Part shown: positions 18,143-25,580 of the stretch, piece by piece
Position numbering within the stretch: position 1 is the stretch's first letter
How the letters are laid out: every line of letters starts with the position of its first letter
Source: Oscillospiraceae bacterium
GTDB taxonomy: Bacteria; Bacillota; Clostridia; Oscillospirales; Ruminococcaceae
DNA: 64,000 nt
Assembly: GCA_009780025.1 (NCBI GenBank)
Contig: WRAV01000006.1
Coordinates: 1 to 64,000 of the forward strand
Direction of reading: 5' to 3'
The notes under the pieces: model-generated
What the model saw: the letters and a program-made list of their open reading frames with translations, nothing else
What the model was told of the DNA's origin: nothing
The model's database searches: none
Program-made: the position numbers and the translations under genes

Positions 18143-21100
18143 ATGAATAAAATTGGTGACGAAAATAATAATGTTCAGAACCCACAGGAAAAGCCGGATG
18201 AAATATCCAATAGCAAGATAGGGCAACCAGAGCAGTCTGCGGCACCAGCAGGTATTGAGCAAACGGACGTCCCGCTGGTCGGCGATACACAGCCTGCGAC
18301 TGAGCAACCGGATGCTGCCGGCACGCACAAGCCCAAGCCTGTGATAATGGGCCTTACAACACTCCAGTGCGTTATAATCGTTGCTATCGCGGTTTTAGCT
18401 TTTTTCGCGATGCTGCTATTGCCACGGCCAGGCGGTCGAGAAGCCGGCTATCAGGAAGAAGCGATTTCTGTCAGGCCGCTTATCTACGACGAGACCGGAG
18501 TGGCTCCGAACACAGCGTTCCAGATACGCCTACCCGGGGTGCCGGAAGCCCAAGTGGCTGCCGGACTTATTGTTATAGAGACTGAGTCGCTATACACTTT
18601 TGATATAACGCCCCTGCCGGACGCGCAGGATGAGTTTTTGCTCACCCCACGCATTCCGCTCGAGAAAAACAGCCGGCTGACTATCACCGTTGGTGGCGTG
18701 GAGTTTGCGTTCGATGTCCGCAACGAGCTTATAATCACCGGTGTATTCCCCGCAAACCGTGCGTGGAACGTCCCCGTGGGCTCCTCAATTGTCCTCACCT
18801 TCAATACCACCGATCCGGTGATGGACCTGTTCGATTCAATGTCGGTCTTCCGCTCTCAGGACGGCCATTACGAGAACTTTCGGGTGTTGCCCCAAGAGGG
18901 ACGGGAGATACATATAACGCCCACCTACCCCCTGCGGTACAACACAGCCTACCAAATCGTAATCTCACCGCCACTTGAGGACGCTGGCGGTGCACAGCTT
19001 TTACAGCCCTTCGAGTTCATGTTCAACACTGCGTCTGAAGGGCGCGCGCGCGACCCGCACACGCGGTGGACCAGCTTCGAACTTTCAGGCGGCGCGCCTA
19101 GTTTTAACATAATTGCCGACGATATCCCGGTATTGCCGGTTGGGATACACGGCCTCTCCCAAACACCGGCCGTCTCGGTTACCGTGCGCACCTTTGATGG
19201 ATGGGAAGCATTTTACGCAGCGTCCCTTTACGGGGAAGAGGCGGACGCCGAGAGTCTGCCGATTTTCGCGGAATACGAAAATGTCGCCGTCGAGGAGTTC
19301 AACTGGAGGCAGGTGATAGTCTTCCCCGAAACGCTGCCGGTTGGGTGGTACCACGTTGAGGTCACCGTAGATTCCAACGAGCTCGAAGTAAACACCCGGA
19401 GCATACTGTTGCAGGTAAGCGACATCTCGGTATTTTATATGACTACCGGCGATGAAGTTATTGTCTGGGCCCACGACATTCTCACCGGGCAACCTCTGAG
19501 CGGTGCAGAGGTAAGCTTTAGCGGCGACTTTGTCGCATCTGGACAGGCGAATACCAGCGGCGTCTTACAGGTTTCCGGCGTGCAGATCGCCGACCCGGAC
19601 GAGGAGCTTGACTGGTGGAGTCGGCGGATAAACAAGCGTTTCACCGTCACTTACGGCGATCGAGTGTTTGTTGCCGGTGAATCCTATGGCGACCAATTCC
19701 GCGACAGCAGAACGACTGACGTCCAGCGCAGATACATAAGCTATATTTACACCGACCGCGATATTTTCCGCACAACCGATACAATCAAAGTCTGGGGGGT
19801 TGTGCAGCCCCGCGATCTCACTTCCCCGCTGCCCGCCGGGCTCGAGCTCGTCCTGGACCGCAGTCGGATAACGCTGCCAATAACACTGCTGCCCGACGGC
19901 ACATTCACGGCCGAAATCGAGCTGGAAAGCGCTGCGCCCCAGAGCTGGGAATGGCTGCGGTTGCAGACGTCCGGCGGCGATGTGCTGCATAGCCGCAACA
20001 TAACAATCAACGACTTTGTCGCGCCTATTTTCAGGGCCGGCGCACAGCCCGACCAGCTGGTCTTTCTGCTGGATGAGCAGAGAACGGCAGGCGCTACCAT
20101 AAATGTCAGCATGTTCGACGGTACCCCAGCCGGTTCGTACCCCTTGAGTATTTCGTCTTGGGGGCAAAATGAACTTGAATTGCTCTCCGAAGGGCTGGTA
20201 ACGGATCGCAACGGCAACTTGGCGGTTGAGCTACAGATTGTCAATGACCGCAACTCTTGGCGGCCAAGAAGTTACACATTCTCATTCAGGGGAGTGCAGG
20301 CCGCAGACGAGAACGTAAATGGCAGGGGTACGATATGGGCCATACACCGTGATGTCATGCTCACCGGCAACCTCAACAGGGCCGCCAACACCATGGAAGT
20401 TACTACTCACGGCATAGATATTTCAGGGGTGCACGACGTGCACGTACTCTGGAACGCGGACGCGCTACGTGGGCGGCCGCTAGTCCAAGAGGTAACGGCG
20501 ACCATGACCCGGGTGTACTTCGTTCGAGAGCAAACCGGCACATTCTACGACCGCGTCCACCGCGAAACCCGTAACAGGTACAGACTTGTCCGGCAGGAAG
20601 AGGTTTTGGAAACAAGAACCTTTACCGCCCAAGGTGGGAGTTACACGCTCACCAACCTGCCAACGCCGAGAGAGCGAGAGTATATCATAGTTGCGCTGGG
20701 CACTCAAGATTCTCTTGGCCGCCCGGTTGAAACGCGGGTGAGCATCTGGCCCAGCGGTGTGCGGCTCTTTGAGAACACCCACGAAGAGGATGGAGTTCAC
20801 CGTTACTCGCTTACACTGAATCACGACCCCGAGTTCGACAATCCGGAATACGATGAAGATGCCCACAATGCCTGGTGGGGATGGGGCTCGAACTGGTGGC
20901 GGTTCTACGGCAACCGCAACACATTTGTAGATGGCCAAGGAGCGGTCTTCGCCCTGCGCAACAACTCCCACGTGGTTGAAGACACCACCGGGTTTATACT
21001 CAGCGCAGTCGTGCAGGATGGGTTTTCTTCGGTGAGCGTAATCCAGGGCAACGAGGTCGCTGTGCCATTTGACGAAAGCCTGGTGCCCAACTACATAGTA

Positions 21101-23320
21101 ACCGGAGCCTTCTTCGATGGCAGGCATATTTTCGACCTGGGCAATACCTATATGAGCTTTAATCCCGAGCGCCGCGAGCTTGAAATAACCCTTGAACCGG
21201 ACAGTCGGGTGTACGCCCCCGGGGATGAAATGCAGGTGACAGTGAACGTTAGGGACGCATTTACCGGACTACCCGCGGCGAATACAGTGGTGCTGCTCAG
21301 CGTGGTGGACGAAGCTATCTTTGCGGTCAGGGAGCAGCACACCAACCTGATCCGCTCTCTCTACCGGGAAATCTTTTTCCCGCGTATCCACCGGTACACA
21401 TCCTTCACCCAGCTCCAGGTATTTGGGCAGGGTGGCGGTGGCGGCGACGGTGACCAAAACCTCCGTCAAGATTTCCCCGACACGGCACACTTTGCGGCCA
21501 CCACCACTGACGAGTACGGAAACGCCCTTATCACAGTTAGGGTACCGGACAGCATAACCAGCTGGCGTCTGACTTCCCTTGCTGTCTCTCCCCAGGGACA
21601 CGCGGGGAACACAAGGATGAATGTGAGCGCCACCCTCGACTATTTCGTCATGCCTATAGTCAACCAGACGCTGCTTGACGGTGACTCGTTTGTAGTCGGG
21701 CTGTTTAGCGCGGGCACCCAGGTGGAAGATGACGACCCGGTAAGCTACACCGTCCGATTGGTAGGCGAAGGTGTCGATATGGTTCGGGAGACAACGTCAA
21801 CCGTGCGCGGGTACGCGAGCGTCGACTTCGGAAGAATAAGCCTGGGCGAATATACTGTCATGGTGACAGGCCAGAGCGGCCAACACCGCGATTCCATGCT
21901 GCTGCCCGTGCAGGTAGTGGCCTCGGGAGTTGAGACGTCCCGGGTGGAGACCTTCAACCTGAGCGACGGCATAGAGATCGACCCGCTGCGCTGGCCGGTA
22001 AGCATCGTGTTCTACAACGAAAACGCCAGGACTTACAACGCTGTTTTCCGCTCGGTGGTTTCGCGGTCGTGGAGCAGTTGGCGAACCGAAGCCCGCCTGG
22101 CCCGCAGATTTATCGCCAGCCGAAATACCTGGTACCGCGAGGCCTTTGGCCAGGAGGATATTTCGAATATCACCGGCAGGCAGATACTGCAAGCGTTGCC
22201 CCATGCGAACCAAAACATTGAGCTAACCGTGCTTGCACACCTGGCGCTGCCAGAGATGCTCGAGCTATCAAGCTTTGGACCCCTCGAATATCGGCAGCTT
22301 GAGGGCAGAGTGACGCCCGACTTTATTGCACGTGCACTCACCGGCCAAGAATTCGACGTTGATTTGGCCCAGCACATTGAGCACGGCGCTGGGCTAGATC
22401 ATATCGATAGAATCTATCTCGCTATGGCAATGTATATCTCCGGCGACACAGCTGGCGCAAACAGCTGGTACTACGCCTTGGTGGAGGGCCGTTTGAATCG
22501 GCACGTGGGTGTCGATGGTACCACGGCGCTTTCAATCACCGACCCGGCCGGAACTAGCACCGAATCGCAGGCAACCGCCGCAGCCCTGATGCTGGCGACG
22601 CTCATCGGCCACGACGATGCCCACGGCCTTGCCCTATACCTTACACGACGCCCACGCTCCGGGGATCCGCACCTGCTTGAGAAAATATTCTATCTGCAAA
22701 ACTTTTCGCCTTCCGGCGGCGAGCCCACCTCTTTTAGCTACCAACTTGGCGGAGAGACAATTACACACACGATCACCGATGGCACAGTGAGAATTAGCCT
22801 AAATCGCAGCGAGTTTGAAAGCGCGGACTTTACATTGATTTCCGGGCAAGTGTACGCGGATGTTTACTTTGTCGGCAGCCCCGAACAGACGGCGGATGAA
22901 TCCAGCAGGCGGATTGGTCTTACCAAAACCCTCGAGCCGGTAGACGGGGTATTTGAACCCGGCGGGCTTGTGAGAATAACCTTGACACCCGATCTTTCCG
23001 CGTTTGATATTGCCGTTGGCAACGCCATGCTAGTTATCGACGATTACGTCCCCACAGGTATGCGCTTTGAGCATGTCTATCGCCCGCCTTCAGATCATAG
23101 CTGGCGCGGCTGGTGGCTTGCTTCTCGTCAAGGTCAGCGCCTGCAGTTCAGCGCTGTCGGTGGGTGGGAGGTCGCCAGAAACTATCGCCTGCTGGGGCCA
23201 ATTATCTACTACGCCCGAATCGCCACCCCCGGTGAATACGTCGTGGAAAGCGCTTTCATCAGCAGTGCCATCTCCGACACTTGGGGCGCCAGCGAGAGAA
23301 GCACCGTGGTTATTGGCTGA
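18143..23320 (+). CDS. Alpha-2-macroglobulin-like surface protein lacking the thioester
   Basis: A 1725-aa protein. Residues 1-67 are a hydrophilic cytosolic tail; a single membrane anchor spans about 68-93; the rest is extracellular. SbsA-type Ig-like units appear near 120-280 (GVFPANRAWNVPVGSSIVLTF). Macroglobulin domains follow: YTDRDIFRTTDTIKVWGVV near 535, LLSVVDEAIFAVREQ near 1053, and the A2M signature ATTTDEYGNALITVRVPD near 1119 with SWRLTSLAVS. A helical thioester-domain region follows, then a receptor-like C-terminus. The only cysteine of the whole protein lies in the membrane anchor, so the CxEQ thioester used to trap proteases is absent. A GGAGGGGG site precedes the ATG. No PbpC partner is nearby. 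Confidence 0.88.
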   Translation: MNKIGDENNNVQNPQEKPDEISNSKIGQPEQSAAPAGIEQTDVPLVGDTQPATEQPDAAGTHKPKPVIMGLTTLQCVIIVAIAVLAFFAMLLLPRPGGREAGYQEEAISVRPLIYDETGVAPNTAFQIRLPGVPEAQVAAGLIVIETESLYTFDITPLPDAQDEFLLTPRIPLEKNSRLTITVGGVEFAFDVRNELIITGVFPANRAWNVPVGSSIVLTFNTTDPVMDLFDSMSVFRSQDGHYENFRVLPQEGREIHITPTYPLRYNTAYQIVISPPLEDAGGAQLLQPFEFMFNTASEGRARDPHTRWTSFELSGGAPSFNIIADDIPVLPVGIHGLSQTPAVSVTVRTFDGWEAFYAASLYGEEADAESLPIFAEYENVAVEEFNWRQVIVFPETLPVGWYHVEVTVDSNELEVNTRSILLQVSDISVFYMTTGDEVIVWAHDILTGQPLSGAEVSFSGDFVASGQANTSGVLQVSGVQIADPDEELDWWSRRINKRFTVTYGDRVFVAGESYGDQFRDSRTTDVQRRYISYIYTDRDIFRTTDTIKVWGVVQPRDLTSPLPAGLELVLDRSRITLPITLLPDGTFTAEIELESAAPQSWEWLRLQTSGGDVLHSRNITINDFVAPIFRAGAQPDQLVFLLDEQRTAGATINVSMFDGTPAGSYPLSISSWGQNELELLSEGLVTDRNGNLAVELQIVNDRNSWRPRSYTFSFRGVQAADENVNGRGTIWAIHRDVMLTGNLNRAANTMEVTTHGIDISGVHDVHVLWNADALRGRPLVQEVTATMTRVYFVREQTGTFYDRVHRETRNRYRLVRQEEVLETRTFTAQGGSYTLTNLPTPREREYIIVALGTQDSLGRPVETRVSIWPSGVRLFENTHEEDGVHRYSLTLNHDPEFDNPEYDEDAHNAWWGWGSNWWRFYGNRNTFVDGQGAVFALRNNSHVVEDTTGFILSAVVQDGFSSVSVIQGNEVAVPFDESLVPNYIVTGAFFDGRHIFDLGNTYMSFNPERRELEITLEPDSRVYAPGDEMQVTVNVRDAFTGLPAANTVVLLSVVDEAIFAVREQHTNLIRSLYREIFFPRIHRYTSFTQLQVFGQGGGGGDGDQNLRQDFPDTAHFAATTTDEYGNALITVRVPDSITSWRLTSLAVSPQGHAGNTRMNVSATLDYFVMPIVNQTLLDGDSFVVGLFSAGTQVEDDDPVSYTVRLVGEGVDMVRETTSTVRGYASVDFGRISLGEYTVMVTGQSGQHRDSMLLPVQVVASGVETSRVETFNLSDGIEIDPLRWPVSIVFYNENARTYNAVFRSVVSRSWSSWRTEARLARRFIASRNTWYREAFGQEDISNITGRQILQALPHANQNIELTVLAHLALPEMLELSSFGPLEYRQLEGRVTPDFIARALTGQEFDVDLAQHIEHGAGLDHIDRIYLAMAMYISGDTAGANSWYYALVEGRLNRHVGVDGTTALSITDPAGTSTESQATAAALMLATLIGHDDAHGLALYLTRRPRSGDPHLLEKIFYLQNFSPSGGEPTSFSYQLGGETITHTITDGTVRISLNRSEFESADFTLISGQVYADVYFVGSPEQTADESSRRIGLTKTLEPVDGVFEPGGLVRITLTPDLSAFDIAVGNAMLVIDDYVPTGMRFEHVYRPPSDHSWRGWWLASRQGQRLQFSAVGGWEVARNYRLLGPIIYYARIATPGEYVVESAFISSAISDTWGASERSTVVIG

Positions 23321-23348: not shown

Positions 23349-23384
23349 TTCCGCGCAATTTCAGTAATGATTGCGGAATGTTTT
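23349..23384 (+). terminator. Terminator after the macroglobulin-like gene
   Basis: TTCCGC-CAAT pairs with ATTG-CGGAA around a 10-base loop with one bulge, followed by tgtttt. Confidence 0.6.
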
Positions 23385-23487: not shown

Positions 23488-24378
23488 ATGGAAAAAGACA
23501 TGTTGAGCATAAGACCAGTCGAAAAATACGAAGCTCCTGAAATTCCAACTTTGAGAGATACTCGCTCTAACCCCGCGCTGCTTAAAAAGCTGCCGTCAAG
23601 GTGGAAGAAAAACGCGGCGGTTATCACCTGCATAGGGCTTATGGGATCGTCCGTGCTTTCGGGTTGCGTAGAACCATCGGTGGGAAATCTCGGCACAGAT
23701 AGCAACAATGGACAGGATGAATATAGCAGCGACAATGGCGGAGAAGGCGGGTACAATGGAGGGTACGCACTCGACAAAGAGAATGGAACAGAAGAAAATC
23801 TCAGCTACAGTGGCGGGGAATACAACGGATACAGCGAATTTGACTTGAGCATTAGAATTCATGGCGGTGGCGCCGGTTTCGCCGCTTATGTTGTGCACCT
23901 AACAGAACAAGAAGCGGTTGGGATTATTCGCGCTCAGCTTGAGGCCGCAGGGCTTAGGCTGAACGACGCCCCGCCGGAGTATACCGCCCTGGAGGAATGG
24001 TGGGGACCAGCCATTGGGATTGATTTGTTTGACGCAAGGCGAAACGTTGCGATCACACACCTCGACTGGCAGCAGAGCCACCAACCGTTTATGCGCGGGG
24101 GAAGAGATTTTGCCGACATGGTCGCGGAAGACTTCGTGGAGCAGACCGACATTTCTGTAGGCGTGTTTTACACATCGGGATTCTTCCCGGAGGGATGGGC
24201 TGTAAGGCGGCATTGGTTTGAGACCGACGACGGCCAATGGGATTACGAAGAACTATCGCGACCAACAGACGAAGAAATCGCACGGGCAAAAGCAGAGGCA
24301 CGACCCATTCTTGAAGAGCGCCTCACCGCGCAAATACAGGAGTTTGTTGCCTTCTTGCAAGCAGAGGGCGTCATATAG
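23488..24378 (+). CDS. Lipoprotein-like protein, probable partner or substrate of the radical SAM enzyme
   Basis: A 296-aa protein from ATG 23488, preceded by AAGGAG; the longer frame from 23431 has no ribosome site. The first 37 residues are an unusually long hydrophilic leader (PVEKYEAPEIPTL...). A hydrophobic segment ending in a lipobox-like LSGC follows at Cys60. A 60-residue Gly/Asn/Glu/Tyr-rich linker (GGEGGYNGGY, GGEYNGYSEFD) follows, then a folded domain from about 135 (HGGGAGFAAYVVHLTEQEA ... FMRGGRDFADMVAEDF) and a charged helical tail. It is followed 31 bp later by a SPASM radical SAM gene. The leader could be a recognition tag and the Gly/Tyr-rich linker a modification target; both are inference. 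Confidence 0.75.
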   Translation: MEKDMLSIRPVEKYEAPEIPTLRDTRSNPALLKKLPSRWKKNAAVITCIGLMGSSVLSGCVEPSVGNLGTDSNNGQDEYSSDNGGEGGYNGGYALDKENGTEENLSYSGGEYNGYSEFDLSIRIHGGGAGFAAYVVHLTEQEAVGIIRAQLEAAGLRLNDAPPEYTALEEWWGPAIGIDLFDARRNVAITHLDWQQSHQPFMRGGRDFADMVAEDFVEQTDISVGVFYTSGFFPEGWAVRRHWFETDDGQWDYEELSRPTDEEIARAKAEARPILEERLTAQIQEFVAFLQAEGVI

Positions 24379-24409
24379 CGGATACGGTCACTTTTAGGAG
24401 GCGATTGCA

Positions 24410-25528
24410 CTGCAACTAACGCTACATGTTACAAACAAATGCAATTTAGAGTGCAAATACTGCTTTGTCGAGCGCGGCCCCGAGATCATGTCGCGGGAGG
24501 TCGCGTTCGCGGCGGTAAAACTGGGCATGGAAAATAAATCCTCATCTGGGTTGCTTTTCTATGGCGGTGAGCCTCTTCTCGAAAAACAGCTTATCTACGA
24601 TATAGTCGACCATACAAAGGCTATCAAAAAGAAGACAGACCATACTTTCTATTACAAAATGACCACCAACGGCACGCTTTTAGATGAAGAATTCCTCAAG
24701 TTTTCGCGGGATGTCAACTTAACCATAGGGTTTTCCCATGACGGGCCGATGCAGGATAAGTGCCGCCTCTCCCCTGATGGTAAGGGCACATTCTCGTTGC
24801 TGGAAGAAAAAATACCGCTGCTGCTTAAATATCAACCCTACGCCGTGGGGATGAGCGTCATGGACCCGTCAACAGTTCACAGTGGTGCAGAAATAGTTAA
24901 GTTCCTATTCGACAAGGGATTTAGGTACATCCATCTTTCTCTTAACTATTCCAAGACCGCTCCTTGGACTAAGGAGCTCCTCTGCGTTTTAGAGCGGGAG
25001 TACAATAAACTGGCGCAGATGTACCTAGAGTGGACAAAGGCGGAGAAGAAATTTTACCTTTCGCCATTTGACATGAAGATTCTGTCCCACCTAAAAGGAG
25101 AGAAATACAATACAGACAGGCTACGCATGGCGCAAAACCAACCCTCAGTGACCCCGGACGGAAAAATCTACTACAGCTCAAAATATTTAGGCGACCCCGC
25201 CTTTATAATCGGAGACGTCTTTTCGGGAATCGACCCAGAAAAGCAAAAAAACATATACGAAAAAGGGGCTGTACCCGCCAACCCTTGCCAAGCATGCGCC
25301 ATTAGAACACGCTGCAACTACGCCTATGACAGCTTGATTTCTCAAGAAGGCGGCATTGTCACCGAGGTATCCCCCATGCAATGTGCCAATGAACAGATAA
25401 TTACTCCCATTGCGGACTATGTCGCGGAAAAACTCTACAAAGAGCGCAACGCTCTATTCATGCATAAGCACTACAATGAGCTATACCCTGTTATGTCCCT
25501 TGTGGAGGATAGGTGTGCGACAAGCTAA
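24410..25528 (+). CDS. Radical SAM/SPASM maturase with apparent CTG start
   Basis: The ORF track begins at ATG 24488, but that would cut off the catalytic cluster. In the same frame upstream the sequence reads LTLHVTNKCNLECKYCF, a perfect CxxxCxxC iron-sulfur/SAM motif (Cys 11, 15, 18). A stop codon (TAG, 24395) leaves only ATT 24404 and CTG 24410 as starts. CTG lies 8 bases after AGGAGG, so it is preferred; length is then 372 aa. FYGGEPLLE is the SAM-binding GGE motif. The C-terminal SPASM region has CQACAIRTRC (293, 296, 302) and a later MQC. Such enzymes modify peptides or protein side chains. The adjacent lipoprotein is the likely substrate. Confidence 0.88.
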   Translation: MQLTLHVTNKCNLECKYCFVERGPEIMSREVAFAAVKLGMENKSSSGLLFYGGEPLLEKQLIYDIVDHTKAIKKKTDHTFYYKMTTNGTLLDEEFLKFSRDVNLTIGFSHDGPMQDKCRLSPDGKGTFSLLEEKIPLLLKYQPYAVGMSVMDPSTVHSGAEIVKFLFDKGFRYIHLSLNYSKTAPWTKELLCVLEREYNKLAQMYLEWTKAEKKFYLSPFDMKILSHLKGEKYNTDRLRMAQNQPSVTPDGKIYYSSKYLGDPAFIIGDVFSGIDPEKQKNIYEKGAVPANPCQACAIRTRCNYAYDSLISQEGGIVTEVSPMQCANEQIITPIADYVAEKLYKERNALFMHKHYNELYPVMSLVEDRCATS

Positions 25529-25550: not shown

Positions 25551-25580
25551 AAAACGCGTTCCCATATGGGGCGCGTTTTT
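25551..25580. terminator. Bidirectional terminator after the radical SAM gene
   Basis: aaaacgcg pairs with cgcgtttt around a loop that contains its own ccc/ggg pairing, flanked by an A-run and a T-run. It separates the radical SAM gene from convergent xpt. Confidence 0.8.

Follow-up and report, generated by a model that had tools for sequence, protein, structure and literature searches.

A lipoprotein with a conserved leader and its neighbouring radical SAM enzyme as a probable two-gene maturation system of gut Clostridia

We found a lipoprotein gene and a radical SAM enzyme gene side by side on the same strand of the window (the whole stretch of 64,000 nucleotides that was analysed), with 31 bp between the stop codon of the former and the CTG start codon of the latter (Table 1). 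Both genes, as well as their spacing, agree with a preliminary description made from the DNA letters. The pair is preceded by a macroglobulin-like gene and followed by a phosphoribosyltransferase gene on the other strand; as that description had also stated, no transporter or protease gene was found within the lipoprotein and enzyme unit when the neighbouring genes were inspected. The inverted repeat downstream of the enzyme gene was read by eye, since its loop exceeds the limit of the pattern scan. The macroglobulin-like protein (window 18143-23320, 1725 residues) contains Big_5, A2M_BRD and A2M domains and an N-terminal membrane segment. Its gene lies directly 5' of the pair here and is not kept beside the pair in relatives.

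Table 1. Features of the lipoprotein and radical SAM enzyme locus (positions in the window; identities are mean pairwise values over 13 aligned lipoproteins)
Feature	Position	Strand	Basis
Terminator-like hairpin 3' of the upstream macroglobulin-like gene	23354..23375	+	pattern scan, consensus match only
Lipoprotein gene, proposed substrate, 296 aa	23488..24378	+	ORF; about 50 relatives adjoining the enzyme
Hydrophilic leader, residues 1-42	23488..23613	+	box identities, invariant residues
Leader box 1, residues 8-22	23509-23553	+	identity 0.50
Leader box 2, LLKKLPSRWKKN region, residues 29-42	23572-23613	+	identity 0.72
h-region (residues 43-59) and lipobox LSGC (residues 57-60; lipid Cys = Cys60, codon 23665-23667)	23614..23667	+	sequence, by inspection; Cys nearly invariant in alignment
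Gly/Asn/Tyr/Ser/Glu-rich linker, residues ~61-120	23668..23847	+	identity 0.26, poorly conserved
Proposed core, candidate modification site, HGGGAGFAAYVVHLTEQE, residues 125-142	23860..23913	+	identity 0.69
Predicted folded domain, residues 133-296	23884..24375	+	AlphaFold model; no family or PDB fold matched
RBS of the enzyme gene, AGGAGG	24396..24401	+	sequence
Radical SAM enzyme gene, 372 aa, CTG start	24410..25528	+	Pfam Radical_SAM, PapB, CteB fold, orthologue starts
Radical SAM cluster motif CNLECKYC (Cys11, Cys15, Cys18)	24440..24463	+	invariant in alignment
Reduced SPASM region, CX2CX5C and last Cys (Cys293, 296, 302, 325)	25286..25384	+	clade alignment, anSME/CteB alignment
Conserved C-terminal tail FMHKHYNELYPVMSLVE, candidate reader of box 2	25457..25507	+	co-occurs with box 2
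Inverted repeat AAAACGCG...CGCGTTTT 3' of the enzyme gene, likely terminator	25551..25579	+	by eye

The natural start of the enzyme gene is not an ATG, GTG or TTG codon. The frame opens at CTG 24410, 8 bp downstream of the AGGAGG sequence, where orthologues use ATG or TTG; an ATT codon is also in frame at 24404. The ORF called mechanically from ATG 24488 would drop the CxxxCxxC motif, and gene callers restricted to ATG, GTG and TTG would thus truncate this enzyme. The protein matches Pfam Radical_SAM and has an intact CX3CX2C motif in residues 11-18, so the radical SAM assignment of the preliminary description stands. Its SPASM assignment needs correcting, since this is not a canonical SPASM enzyme: Pfam SPASM gives no match in it, and four cysteines are left of the seven in the SPASM motif CX9-15GX4C-gap-CX2CX5CX3C-gap-C (PMC6231123). 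In all 11 enzymes of the window clade the cysteines left are those of AuxII and the AuxI ones are gone, while all seven are kept in the alignment of related clades. We take this division into AuxI and AuxII from the alignment to anSME and CteB and from the presumed ligands of anSME. The best NCBIfam model is PapB (NF047865), with 161 bits against a cut-off of 340 (190-235 bits for enzymes of related clades), and the nearest solved relative by both sequence and fold is CteB (PDB 5WGG). A viperin-like defence protein was considered and rejected, as the match (57 bits over the N-terminal 112 residues) covers the general radical SAM region only.

We then investigated how widely the pair is conserved. 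Scanning GTDB genomes with the enzyme as query yielded nine relatives from termite guts, with 55-78% identity. In eight of them, one to three genes with the leader lie immediately 5' of the enzyme gene, and the ninth (L013) has the substrate on another contig. Searches beyond these nine added members in other genera and families, including one Clostridia family in which 52 of 115 genomes possess enzymes of this group. Of 399 genomes of the phylum sampled without selection, five were matched by the lipoprotein profile. One match (G556) proved to be a chance one, with neither such a lipoprotein nor the enzyme in that genome, and the other four are exactly the four genomes whose enzyme exceeds 600 bits against the enzyme profile (the next enzyme has 238). 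Altogether, 54 enzyme loci were examined: 11 of the window clade, 12 of related clades, G1173, and 30 of family f178, whose link to the window system rests on enzyme homology (338-357 bits), gene order and a short leader motif. The flank runs off the contig at two loci. At 51 of the 52 readable ones, at least one such lipoprotein, often in two to four tandem copies, is encoded beside the RiPP-type modifying enzyme (at G712 and G879 only as a contig-end fragment), and the other has it in trans; the sequences compared are related, several of them from metagenome bins, and these counts are not independent. The preliminary description had made its reading depend on the co-occurrence of the two families, and they do co-occur almost without exception.

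The order of the two genes is reversed in G728, and in G954 one gene lies between them. Apart from the pair itself, no gene is conserved at the loci compared. Such variable surroundings are what chance neighbours would also show, but the pairing is kept across many genera and several families, and both protein families are absent from most of the sampled genomes. This conservation refutes a chance adjacency, to which we give practically no weight. Dozens of gut Clostridia possess the pair, which is not represented in the curated family libraries that we searched. Our literature search, in which subscription journals are thinly covered, found no published description of the pair, and an earlier one is possible.

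The lipoprotein was aligned along its leader and linker, as had been proposed earlier. The leader and the core are the conserved parts and the linker drifts (Table 1), and the domain outside the core has a mean pairwise identity of 0.37 among the 13 aligned lipoproteins. About 42 residues precede the h-region, close to the 37-residue hydrophilic leader given in the preliminary description; in the comparison within the window, all three other lipoproteins have an n-region of 3 residues. The leader consensus is P-x3-Y-x2-P-x2-P ... LLKxxPxRWxK, and the core consensus is H-x-G-G-x-G...Y-x-V...T-E-x-E. With a conserved leader, a conserved and repeated core, and a variable linker and body, the lipoprotein follows the logic of a RiPP precursor. 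It matches no known family: neither the lipoprotein nor its relatives fit any NCBIfam model (none at E <= 1 for the window protein), and the only Pfam family above cut-off is Cu_amine_oxidN1 in two fused members. Foldseek with the AlphaFold model, which is weak outside the domain, gave no PDB match, and the lipoprotein profile found nothing among solved structures. The lipobox Cys is absent in three members of the window clade (L007, L010t and G1027a). G1027a has an AQA sequence that signal peptidase I might cleave. Extra copies of the lipoprotein gene, frameshifted or truncated, exist at L011:4401-5183 and L093:2336-2623, reflecting either precursor gene duplication and decay or assembly error.

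The cores themselves are repeated. The H-x-G-G motif occurs 26 times in 19 window-clade proteins, compared with 0.8 in shuffled sequences. Extra isolated core copies of about 20 residues are found once each in L008a, L010a and L014a and twice in L010b, a short way past the lipobox, where the remainder of the domain is missing. A 583-residue protein of G1027 has two whole domains, each with a core, on either side of a Cu_amine_oxidN1 domain, and lacks the lipobox Cys. The f178 substrates are lipoproteins of 53-138 residues, present in one to four copies per locus, and their mature parts contain [VIL]-x-[LYFMI]-x-G repeats (100 counts of [VI]-x-[LY]-x-G against 1.8 in shuffled sequences). Kept leaders, repeated cores and tandem genes together make up the anatomy of RiPP precursors. 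The earlier idea of a whole exported lipoprotein as the substrate therefore needs widening: folded lipoproteins are indeed paired with the enzyme, but so are short lipopeptides with repeated cores in one family, and some substrates lack a lipobox and bear Cu_amine_oxidN1 domains.

These observations bear on whether the lipoprotein is the substrate at all. It might instead be a partner or receptor, with the enzyme acting on another peptide or a small molecule, and its folded domain could well have a function of its own. However, there is no other conserved gene beside the pair, cores and precursor genes are multiplied in a RiPP-like manner, and payloads from 53-residue peptides to 583-residue proteins have only the leader and core-like motifs in common. 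We consider a partner or receptor role improbable. One feature does count against modification of the lipoprotein by the enzyme: the core differs from clade to clade, being H-x-G-G-x-G, H-G-x-G-R-G-x-[FY]-G-C or xLxGx repeats, and in G728, G1026 and G1086 neither of the first two forms is found.

We compared the enzyme termini with the leaders. A conserved tail, FMHKHYNELYPVMSLVED in the window, closes the enzymes whose substrates hold box 2 (LLKxxPxRW). Five aligned f178 enzymes stop before this tail, and their substrates are devoid of box 2; G1173 is intermediate. Since box 2 and the tail are lost together, the tail is a candidate reader of box 2. This points to a recognition mode as a lead, and the joint loss may be one evolutionary event. 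On the other hand, the radical SAM motif begins at residue 11, leaving the enzyme without an N-terminal RRE domain, so that leader binding is a conjecture, and no RRE is encoded beside it, with no further gene conserved in the unit. The enzyme might thus modify the lipoprotein by reading the core alone, the extension being a lengthened part of the signal peptide with a role in slowing or directing export. The extension does directly precede the h-region, and the MNIO enzymes of DAG-RiPPs recognise their substrates by a C-terminal motif, leader-independent enzymes having been expected by the authors of that work (PMC12636315). However, no protein other than those paired with this enzyme was found to have the extension, which is shared by widely differing cargoes, and its box 2 disappears along with the enzyme tail. 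Core-only reading thus seems unlikely, though it deserves more weight than the other alternatives.

As for the chemistry, no Cys is conserved in the mature substrates of the window clade, the core included, and neither Cys nor Ser is conserved at any core position. In SuiB, AuxI accepts an electron from the substrate radical (PMC9012708), and in CteB it binds the substrate Cys (PMC6231123). Because the window clade has lost both the AuxI cysteines and any conserved substrate Cys, a thioether, formylglycine or an AuxI-dependent oxidation is unlikely there. Its chemistry would depend neither on a Cys or Ser conserved in the substrate nor on AuxI with the usual ligands, and the candidates are a redox-neutral change or an oxidation through another electron acceptor. 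We give no single reaction type more than about one chance in three. We had suspected thioether formation as a family-wide rule, as the window clade has neither the core Cys nor the AuxI cysteines and G245, G458 and G576 have both. The rule was dropped because in G712, G728, G1026 and f178 the AuxI cysteines persist although no core Cys is conserved.

An ordinary PapB-type ranthipeptide system forming Cys-to-Asp/Glu thioether cross-links is suggested by the best NCBIfam model and by relatives in other clades having a GC-x-S-V core and full SPASM cysteines. Nevertheless, the window enzyme reaches less than half of the PapB cut-off and, with its AuxI cysteines lost, faces a mature substrate without conserved Cys; we regard this reading as highly improbable. 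While PapB (PMC9413430) shares the radical SAM/SPASM architecture, the window substrate is an exported lipoprotein without conserved Cys or CX3D. Similarly, CteB, the maturase of SCIFF, has an N-terminal RRE and a Cys-binding AuxI site (PMC6231123), both of which the window enzyme lacks. A reaction of the anaerobic sulfatase-maturase type, converting Cys or Ser to formylglycine, would fit with anSME being among the closest solved folds, but the anSME model gives 89 bits against a cut-off of 349 and the core offers no conserved residue for it. We rejected this chemistry, whose probability is close to nil.

Taken from these comparisons, the pair is probably a two-gene maturation system, in which the radical SAM enzyme modifies a leader-bearing lipoprotein before export. 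The earlier reading of a two-gene surface-protein modification system is likewise supported by the co-occurrence and by leader and core conservation, and the proximity of the enzyme to the peptide maturases PapB and CteB and the precedent of RiPP-lipoproteins (PMC12636315) also argue for it. We infer the following order of steps. In the cytoplasm, the enzyme would bind the pre-lipoprotein by its hydrophilic N-terminal leader (boxes 1 and 2), generate a 5'-deoxyadenosyl radical and modify the H-x-G-G-x-G...Y core, which follows the membrane segment. Sec would then export the protein, Lgt would put diacylglycerol on Cys60, and LspA would remove the signal peptide and leader in one cut, yielding a modified surface lipoprotein. 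With the lipoprotein pathway (Sec, Lgt and LspA) exporting and trimming the product, no dedicated transporter or protease would be needed.

The nearest precedent in mode of action is the DAG-RiPPs (DybA/DybH and NedA/NedBC), whose MNIO-modified precursors enter the lipoprotein pathway and whose substrates can be whole proteins of more than 30 kDa (PMC12636315, preprint 2025). The survey describing them mined only the surroundings of MNIO genes. In both cases the precursor has a lipoprotein signal peptide (with a lipobox seen by inspection in the window family, except for a few relatives without the Cys), and a cytoplasmic metalloenzyme acts before Lgt and LspA, as proposed here for the window. 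However, the DAG-RiPP enzymes are MNIOs rather than radical SAM enzymes, they recognise a C-terminal motif whereas the window leader precedes the signal peptide, and their cores contain Cys whereas the window cores are Cys-free. Another system of related concept is the rSAM/lipoprotein system of Bacteroidetes (TIGR04133/TIGR04134), in which a radical SAM enzyme is paired with a putative lipoprotein. TIGR04133 is not among the best 25 of the 76 families listed for the window enzyme, and the window lipoprotein does not match TIGR04134 or any other NCBIfam model.

RiPP systems normally require a transporter and a leader protease. If the proposed maturation is true, the ordinary lipoprotein pathway supplies both, the leader sits where LspA removes it free, and a cassette of two genes can equip the cell surface with products of radical chemistry. 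It would be a leader-dependent radical SAM counterpart to the DAG-RiPPs (PMC12636315). We lean, with somewhat less confidence than for the two-gene system itself, towards a broad class that has no name yet: leader-dependent radical SAM RiPP-lipoproteins with the leader N-terminal to the signal peptide and removed by LspA, payloads ranging from 53-residue lipopeptides to folded proteins, and one clade, without AuxI or substrate Cys, that would perform a reaction undescribed for this enzyme family. Natural variants with and without AuxI, and with and without core Cys, provide a means to probe the roles of auxiliary clusters.

Some loci have unusual settings. L009 (WQYB01000057.1), binned as Treponema, carries the pair and is nested within the Bacillota clade of the enzyme tree, which may be due to horizontal transfer or mis-binning. 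At L054:2267-3537 (G728), genes that by eye resemble a BlaI-type repressor and a BlaR1/M56-type membrane protease precede the enzyme gene, which overlaps the end of the latter, with the lipoprotein gene downstream. This arrangement suggests regulated expression there. Two PapB-like radical SAM enzymes that are further removed, with 238 and 212 bits against the family profile, are encoded at L055:413-2076 and L056:155-1757. Each is preceded by a protein of 131-143 residues that matches no Pfam or NCBIfam family, lacks a lipobox and has the motif H-[IL]-H-L...Y-x-L, possibly forming another enzyme-substrate pair.
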